The notes under the pieces: model-generated | Told to the model about the DNA's origin: nothing | The model's input: only the letters and a program-made list of their open reading frames with translations | The model's database searches: none | Assembly: GCA_001899635.1 (NCBI GenBank) | Contig: MKVQ01000001.1 | Span: 325,441 to 389,440, forward strand | Direction: 5' to 3' | From: Myxococcales bacterium 68-20 | Lineage (GTDB): Bacteria; Myxococcota_A; Polyangia; Polyangiales; Polyangiaceae | DNA: 64,000 bases | Part shown: positions 58,235-59,540 of the stretch, one piece after another | How positions within the stretch are numbered: the stretch's first letter is position 1 | Layout of the letters: each line of letters begins with the position of its first letter | Program-made: the position numbers and the translations under genes

Positions 58235-58700
58235 CGTCGGCTCGCCCCCCACGTGCGCCGGCTTCCGCTCGCGACGTCGCAAGCGACGTCCGCGCTGGAG
58301 GCATTCGCGAGCAGCGTCCCCTGGCCGTCCGTCAGGTTGCCCTGAACGACGGCGATCCGCGGCGCGATCATCCCCCTCTTGATACCGCCAATCGTCGGTC
58401 CGCGCAGCTACTTCATCGGGAGGCGAGCGGCCGCGCTCGGCTCGACACCTCCACGAGCGCGACCTTTTGGCCGGCCCATCCGTCGAGGCGACTCGAGTCG
58501 AGTCGAGCACTCGACGACGACGCGCGGTGCTCGGGCGCGCACGTCTTCGCGCACCGTCGTAGCGCCACCGGCGAGCGCCATCGTGGCGCAACCCGCGCCT
58601 CGCGCGCCCACGCGTTGGCTGCCAACCCCGCGAGAAGACGTGCACACGCCGGAGGTACGTGCCTTGCGAACGCCGCCGCGTCCTTCATCTGGAGCGTGAC
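58235..58700. other. intergenic stretch between divergent ICMT-like and Cys-repeat genes
   Basis: No gene is supported. It contains a 12-bp perfect palindrome CGACTCGAGTCG (58489-58500) inside a GAGTCGAGTCGAG run. The right end has TGGAGC before the ATG at 58701. Confidence 0.4.
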
Positions 58701-59540
58701 ATGACGACGATTCGTTCGCGTTTGGCCTCTTCGATTTCTTCCACCAGCGCCGCGTCGGCGCTCGCAGTCTTGCTCCTCGTCGCTTGCAGCGGCGGGAGCT
58801 CGGCGATCCCGGAGACGGGATCCGATCCCGGCAACGCGAGCAGCTCCAGCGGCTCGAGCTCCAGCTCGAACATCTCGTCCTCCGCCGAGCAGGTCAACGG
58901 AGGCTGTCCGACGAATCCCGAGAAACTGGTGGGCAACGGGAAGCCGGGCGCGAGCTGCTCGACGTATGTAGACTGCATGCCGACGTGCTGTGACTGCTCG
59001 AGCGGAACCTCGTATCTCGCAGCGGCCTGTGTCGACGGCGTGTGCGGAGGGGCCGAGGTCGCGTGTGGACGCGCGCGCAAGGCATTCTGCGGCGAGGACG
59101 AGACGAGCCGATCGGGCGGTTCGAGTGGCTCGAGCGGTTCGAGCGGCACGAGTAGCTCCAGCAGCTCGTCGAGCGGCTCGAGCGGCTCGAGCGGCTCGAG
59201 CGGCGGGAAGGAGTGCGTCGAGGGCACTTCGTTGTCTTGTTACGGCAGCAAGATGTATTGGACCGGATCGAAGTGCTGCGTCGACGGCCCGGTCGAATGC
59301 GTCGACGGCACGTCCTTGTCTTGTTACGGCACCGGGATGATGTGGACCGGCGCCAAGTGCTGCGTCAGCGGCAACCCAACGTGCGTCGACGGCACGTCGC
59401 TCTCCTGCTACGGCTCGCACATGAAGTGGACGGGCGCGGAGTGCTGCATCGACGTTGCCGTCCAGTGTGTCCCGGGCACCTCGACGAGCTGCTACGGGAC
59501 GGGGAAATACTGGACGGGCGCGCTCTGCTGCCTGACGTGA
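58701..59540 (+). CDS. lipoprotein with four Cys-rich WTG repeats
   Basis: 279 residues. Lipobox VA-Cys29 is followed by a Ser/Gly linker, a cysteine-rich domain (about 70-140, with VDCMPTCCDCSSGTS and VDGVCGG), a second SGSSGSSG linker, and four repeats at 172-199, 200-227, 228-255 and 256-279. Each repeat reads C-V-x-G-T-S-x-S-C-Y-G-x-x-x-x-W-T-G-x-x-C-C, four cysteines in 22 residues, so each could be a small disulphide-closed module. I know no family of this form. Surface display and binding (sugar, prey cell, matrix) are guesses. It starts behind TGGAGCGTG. Confidence 0.8.
   Translation: MTTIRSRLASSISSTSAASALAVLLLVACSGGSSAIPETGSDPGNASSSSGSSSSSNISSSAEQVNGGCPTNPEKLVGNGKPGASCSTYVDCMPTCCDCSSGTSYLAAACVDGVCGGAEVACGRARKAFCGEDETSRSGGSSGSSGSSGTSSSSSSSSGSSGSSGSSGGKECVEGTSLSCYGSKMYWTGSKCCVDGPVECVDGTSLSCYGTGMMWTGAKCCVSGNPTCVDGTSLSCYGSHMKWTGAECCIDVAVQCVPGTSTSCYGTGKYWTGALCCLT

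Follow-up and report, generated by a model that had tools for sequence, protein, structure and literature searches.

A tandem cysteine repeat without a match above curated Pfam or NCBIfam cut-offs forms the C-terminal end of predicted lipoproteins in one class of Myxococcota

Introduction

Proteins built from tandem cysteine repeats have been described in several settings. The coral skeletal matrix protein Amgalaxin-like 1 carries one di-cysteine and two single cysteines in each 29-residue unit (PMC2726143, in the excerpt available), while the cysteine repeats of the myxobacterial protein TraA have been proposed to form a stalk (PMC3325183, excerpt). Tandem disulphide-rich domains, many bacterial sequences included, have furthermore been placed in the descriptive class of SCREPs (PMC6262176, excerpt), and the six-cysteine scaffold of pacifastin represents another cysteine-rich architecture (PMC13388995, excerpt). 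No paper on the repeat analysed here was listed by the literature search, which was limited to open-licence papers, and the passages retrieved from PMC10045328 and PMC12093494 concern analogous repeats or carbohydrate use rather than this repeat. We describe its organization in a window of 64 kb, which is the whole stretch of DNA that was analysed, as well as its distribution, evolution and possible function.

Organization of the lipoprotein gene and its product

A predicted lipoprotein of 279 residues is encoded on the forward strand at positions 58701-59540 of the window, stop codon included. The translated frame contains no internal stop, homologues of like layout are found and the sequence is under purifying selection relative to its counterpart in genome G006, all of which support its assignment as a coding sequence. 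A longer frame is possible from a GTG codon at 58659; the ATG at 58701 was taken as the start because a normal signal peptide results. The predicted signal peptide (residues 1-28) and lipobox Cys29 (58701-58787) were identified by sequence reading and by script, with an ALAVLLLVA stretch preceding the cysteine, and as such the translated product displays the signal peptide with lipobox cysteine by which bacterial lipoproteins are recognized. A first Ser/Gly-rich linker (residues 30-61; 58788-58883) leads into an unnamed N-terminal Cys-rich domain (residues 62-130; 58884-59090), which is followed by a second Ser/Gly linker (residues 131-171; 59091-59213) encoded by a 9-nt repeat. The 22-residue cores of four repeat units, all located by pattern matching, then occupy positions 59214-59279, 59298-59363, 59382-59447 and 59466-59531. 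The stop codon stands two residues past the last CC, so that the four units make up the entire C-terminus. This layout agrees with an earlier note on this DNA, which had described a lipoprotein with a lipidated cysteine, a Cys-rich domain distinct from the repeats, and Ser/Gly linkers, the signal peptide and the lipidation being predicted features. The gene is present as a single copy in its own genome.

The upstream neighbour of the gene, on the other strand, is an ORF that matches ICMT and DUF1295; the downstream neighbour, likewise on the other strand, is a UvrA-like ORF. As both neighbours are located on the opposite strand, the gene seems to stand alone. A sigma-70 scan returned no promoter-like site, and two terminator-like sites fall inside the gene. 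Among the 13 neighbourhoods compared, the neighbouring genes are shared only by G006, a member of the window's genus. The UvrA-like ORF, on the minus strand between 60001 and 64000, exceeds 1,300 residues and runs off the window; the corresponding frame in G006 (L101, 11504-17212) comprises approximately 1,900 residues and has the appearance of a single chain containing UvrA twice.

The repeat unit and the architecture of the arrays

The repeat unit conforms to the consensus C-x2-G-x4-C-x6-W-T-G-x2-C-C. A degenerate DNA pattern of the unit matches four times in the 64-kb window, in all cases within this gene, and was not matched in any of 100 shuffles. The unit starts are spaced by exactly 28 residues and the 22-residue cores share 68-82% pairwise identity. 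Four cysteine units, as claimed in the earlier note, are thus recovered by the pattern, although their description as near-identical is slightly strong. Similarly, the positions at which the units were said mainly to differ (12-15 and 19-20) do vary among the cores, but so do positions 3 and 7.

Across the 20 array proteins identified (see below), three to eight units are found per protein. The total of 95 was obtained by script, which overlooks the fourth unit of G177b, where the first two cysteines stand closer together; in addition, contig ends truncate the arrays of G488 and G524, and G065 is incomplete on its N-terminal side. The 22-residue core (C-x7-C-x11-CC) is found in 84 of the 95 units. 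Residues C1, C9, W16, T17, G18, C21 and C22 are invariant in all 84 standard-length units, and G4 varies once. Arrays start at C1 and finish at CC, without half-units, and in all 18 proteins with a visible stop they are located at the C-terminal end, with one to four residues after the last CC. The signature [GN][KQ]xW[TS]G occurs in 11 of the 18 last units and in 1 of the 77 others (Fisher p 4.5e-9, a descriptive value only, since the motif was picked after the data had been seen and the proteins are related); it appears as G-K-Y-W in unit 4 of the window protein.

A lipobox was detected in 14 of the 20 proteins by a strict script and in 18 by eye, the latter adding G177a, G435, G527 and G531. 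The N-terminus of G065 is missing, and no lipobox was found in frame in G123 (L108), a three-unit array protein for which an in-frame signal peptide was likewise not found and which is possibly a broken or misassembled copy. Two alternating types of inter-unit segment are present in G030, G080, G108 and G109, and the units themselves alternate in part of G177a, suggesting a two-unit building block in those arrays, while no such alternation of segment types was found in G112, G488 and G123. The alternating types in L105, L106 and L109 suggest that some arrays have grown by two-unit duplication.

Distribution of the array proteins

Profile searches were run with successively larger alignments. 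Among 58 relatives searched, 43 matched at E<=10, with strong matches only in G000 (the window's genome), G006, G011 and G030. At E<=0.01, matches were obtained in 10 of 108 genomes within the family, 12 of 183 within the order (the weak G098 included) and 6 of 377 across the phylum (the weak G309 and G353 included), while 20 of 317 genomes within the class matched at E<=0.001 (the weak and partial G141 included). With these four weak matches left out, 20 array proteins are found in 19 genomes, all of which belong to the window's class (19 of 317): G000, G006, G011, G030, G065, G080, G108, G109, G112, G123, G177 (two proteins), G435, G488, G511, G524, G527, G529, G531 and G583. These are spread over five families of the class (f1, f3, f15, f66 and f74). 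Other weak single matches (L062, L082, L083, L149, with no unit seen, G054, G008 and further weak rows) were also left uncounted. A narrow peptide pattern scanned over genome contigs returned 32 stretches, of which one was a relative, L032 of Labilithrix sp. ACE_MYX7. Viral contigs contained no exact pattern match and the phages searched gave no match. Two plasmid records matched at <30% identity, one of which was inspected and carries no annotation under the match.

The searches delimit a module that the family libraries searched do not name, characterized by a sharp consensus and an unchanging place at the C-terminus, with 95 example units from 20 proteins. Were one member to be assigned a function, the annotation would extend to proteins in five bacterial families of this class.

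The N-terminal domain and its association with different arrays

The N-terminal Cys-rich domain lacks a Pfam match in all seven members scanned. At E<=0.001, its profile detects the domain in 21 of the 183 genomes of the order, where it sits in lipoprotein-like frames of several kinds. Eight of the 20 array proteins carry it ahead of the WTG array (G000, G006, G011, G030, G080, G108, G109 and G511), the assignment having been made by reading in G511 and by profile in the other seven. In the remaining array proteins, the N-terminal part is Cys-rich but of another kind, or nearly absent (G112, G435, G529 and G531). In G113 (L121), the domain leads through a Gly-rich linker into another tandem cysteine repeat, of the CYxxC...CETIC type, with units of approximately 28-30 residues. 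The predicted adaptor domain is, as such, one that carries two unrelated arrays, the WTG array and that of G113.

Evolution of the repeats

Ratios of dN/dS were determined by the Nei-Gojobori method on the aligned codons of G000 and G006, the two closest orthologues. The ratio is 0.19 over the whole gene, 0.07 in the N-terminal domain and 0.14 in the repeats, and reaches 0.36 in the second linker and 0.44 in residues 1-61. Within the units, it is 0.03 at core positions, 0.30 at variable positions and 0.24 at positions 12-15 and 19-20; the contrast between core and variable positions is partly circular because the split was defined on the same units. Purifying selection acts over the repeats.

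When individual units of G000 and G006 were compared, each proved closest to its counterpart of the same rank, and this also holds between G108 and G109, with one tie. However, the nearest match of unit 2 in both G000 and G006 is unit 1 of G011, and for two G000 units it is the last unit of G030. Close relatives thus retain the identity of each unit, which becomes less distinct as the relationship grows more remote.

Predicted structure of the array

AlphaFold models were built from the window and L032 sequences only (6 and 2 rows). The two-unit model has a mean pLDDT of 79.2 and a pTM of 0.53, and the four-unit model, which is extended, a mean pLDDT of 78.7 and a pTM of 0.62. Both are all-beta, with strands predicted at C1, at the residues up to the Trp and at the CC. 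Foldseek comparison against the PDB gave no fold match (best E 8.2 and 6.7), VIA-align, run on the Foldseek candidates only, gave no Z of 2 or more, and the best match of the four-unit model, the only one compared with a viral structure library, had an E of 2.9. Sequence searches of solved structures returned Ser/Gly-linker matches and, for 16 units, no match, while the array profile matched an ice-binding protein (PDB 3ult; E 0.0016) via Gly/Thr periodicity.

Putative function of the array

We tentatively suggest that the protein is a lipoprotein of the cell surface whose small beta modules together form a multivalent tail for binding, a reading to which we give somewhat less than an even chance. 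The product of this single gene would be exported, lipidated at Cys29 and presumably placed on the outer surface, where the Ser/Gly linkers and the Cys-rich domain would serve as spacers that keep the C-terminal array of four predicted beta modules off the membrane. Each module is probably self-closed by two disulphides among C1, the second cysteine and the CC pair, since the arrays begin at C1 and finish at CC; the unvarying cysteines and the export signal agree with disulphide pairing in the repeats. The array is taken as the working end because nothing follows it in any relative with a visible end, and the repeated copies of a conserved Trp-Thr-Gly hairpin could provide multivalent, protease-resistant binding, with a polysaccharide or another cell or matrix surface as the most likely target.

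The C-terminal location of the array in all 18 visible ends implies that no head is carried and that the array itself is the free end. This constant place points to a tail that is sticky and not to a spacer, and the role in adhesion or binding put forward in the earlier note is consistent with it. The N-terminal parts differ among the relatives while the array stays, which is also consistent with a binding tail. Further points in its favour are the predicted signal peptide and lipobox, the seven residues that are invariant in standard-length units, the all-beta models and the distinct last unit. The invariant Trp, on the other hand, may be part of the core rather than exposed, which would argue against it. 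Also counting against it, the structure and library searches gave neither a fold match nor a confident domain match, and dN/dS gives no indication of diversifying selection at the variable positions. Should the array bind polysaccharide, it would represent a tandem binding module of very small size that disulphides hold together, and would offer a handle on the substrate attachment of predatory or saprophytic myxobacteria.

The main alternative, possible but of clearly lower probability, is that the protein is a structural component of a matrix or stalk, with the array forming a stiff, protease-resistant rod or a cross-linkable matrix component. There are precedents in the galaxins, whose tandem cysteine repeats of approximately 30 residues with CC have been proposed to be structural (PMC2726143, excerpt), and in the stalk proposed for TraA (PMC3325183, excerpt); the galaxin resemblance of the arrays is, however, one of periodicity, with Galaxin_repeat matched by four of ten forward and six of ten reversed arrays. 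The free variation in unit number, from three to eight, would suit a rod, as would purifying selection over the repeats and the extended shape of the predicted all-beta models, but a special last unit is unexpected in a uniform rod, and there is no head domain for a stalk to bear, as nothing follows the array at the 18 visible ends.

A role in supplying small Cys-rich modules with antimicrobial or protease-inhibitor activity, either as their precursor or as their carrier and with the modules used whole or cleaved free, appears improbable. Tandem disulphide-rich units are a common format of inhibitors and toxins (SCREPs; PMC6262176, excerpt), but the predicted lipid anchor, the inter-unit segments, in which no common cleavage motif was apparent by eye, and the lack of conserved neighbours beyond G006, with which methyltransferase-like and UvrA-like genes are held in common, argue against such a precursor. 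Least probable of all is a binding face undergoing diversification among units, as put forward in the earlier note, and among strains: most changes among the window units do fall at positions 12-15 and 19-20, and the variable positions have higher ratios than the core (0.24-0.30 versus 0.03, with positions taken from the same data), but every dN/dS value, obtained between species-level sequences, is well below 1 (0.14 for the repeats as a whole, 0.24 for the positions named), and each unit is closest to that of the same rank between G000 and G006, as between G108 and G109 bar the one tie, a rule broken by unit 2 relative to G011.

Comparison with known protein families

The whole window protein has no Pfam match, and the NCBIfam candidate SP_0198_lipo (E 0.0099; 15.8 bits versus a cut-off of 100) was rejected, as it covers the signal peptide and linker only. 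The earlier statement that no named domain has this pattern is upheld at the level of the curated Pfam and NCBIfam cut-offs, and the unit defines a repeat family with no match above those cut-offs and no credible PDB relative. When the arrays alone were compared with Pfam, matches below cut-off at E up to 1 were obtained to LbR_Ice_bind (10 of 20), CBM_1 (10 of 20) and Galaxin_repeat (6 of 20). Repeats inflate profile scores, given that a reversed array matched Isoamylase_C above cut-off. Among ten arrays compared in both directions, CBM_1 and LbR_Ice_bind were each matched by six forward and no reversed arrays, and these direction-dependent likenesses are leads at most.

The best array match to LbR_Ice_bind has an E of 8e-6 (26.3 bits versus a cut-off of 30), and of four whole proteins one matched this family, at 2.1e-5. 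The alignment of the array profile with the ice-binding protein (PDB 3ult) rests on Gly/Thr periodicity, with no cysteines paired. This beta roll was set aside as a 14/28-residue resonance, by judgement rather than proof.

The galaxins (Galaxin_repeat, PF24748) likewise consist of tandem cysteine units, of approximately 29-30 residues, with di-cysteines. Their single cysteines are three residues apart in the excerpt of PMC2726143, in contrast to seven in the arrays described here. None of the matches listed exceeds the cut-off of 28 bits, and the best reversed array scores better than the best forward one (E 5.8e-6 versus 0.0017; ten arrays). Homology to galaxins was rejected, as reversed arrays match as often and better, and the likeness is ascribed to CC periodicity. 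Over 177 genomes of the order, the galaxin family matched in eight at E<=0.01 and above cut-off in one, in a frame with stops in G062; the sole array protein touched was that of G109 (E 0.004, under cut-off).

TraA of Myxococcus (TIGR04201) is also a myxobacterial surface protein with tandem cysteine repeats. It differs in having a PA14 head and a MYXO-CTERM tail, whereas the proteins described here have a predicted N-terminal lipid anchor and the array as free end, and neither the window protein nor four typed arrays matched the NCBIfam model TIGR04201. SCREPs, in turn, represent a format rather than a family, and the available passages on them (PMC6262176) do not name the WTG unit.

The arrays have a local C-x-G-x-W-T-G-x2-C signature in common with CBM_1 (PF00734), the fungal-type cellulose-binding module. 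The best of the 20 arrays reaches 18.6 bits (E 0.0017), below the cut-off of 20.6 bits, and the match covers the module only in part. The four-cysteine spacing of CBM_1 is unlike C-x7-C-x11-CC, and the arrays, as tandem units of 28 residues, depart from it. No CBM_1 match was found in a search of the window's own genome, and among 177 genomes of the order four had CBM_1 above cut-off, none of which is an array genome. Among these four, G101 (L169, frame around 1501), of the same family, provides the sole protein read with a clear module of the CBM_1 type, CGGAGWTGPTCC ... NPYYSQC, located C-terminally in a frame of 453 residues.

The sub-threshold, direction-specific resemblance to CBM_1 hints at a polysaccharide target, although direction-specific weak matches are no sure guide, since LbR_Ice_bind is matched as often (6/10). 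A more elaborate and unlikely scheme, an undescribed form of surface display in this class of Myxococcota, would combine these elements, with interchangeable lipoprotein stalks, composed of various Cys-rich N-terminal parts and Ser/Gly linkers, displaying C-terminal arrays of a new two-disulphide, polysaccharide-binding beta module, either convergent with CBM_1 or its distant kin, and a specialized unit at the tip. If this were true, the N-terminal domain would represent a general adaptor for the display of repeat arrays, that of G113 included.
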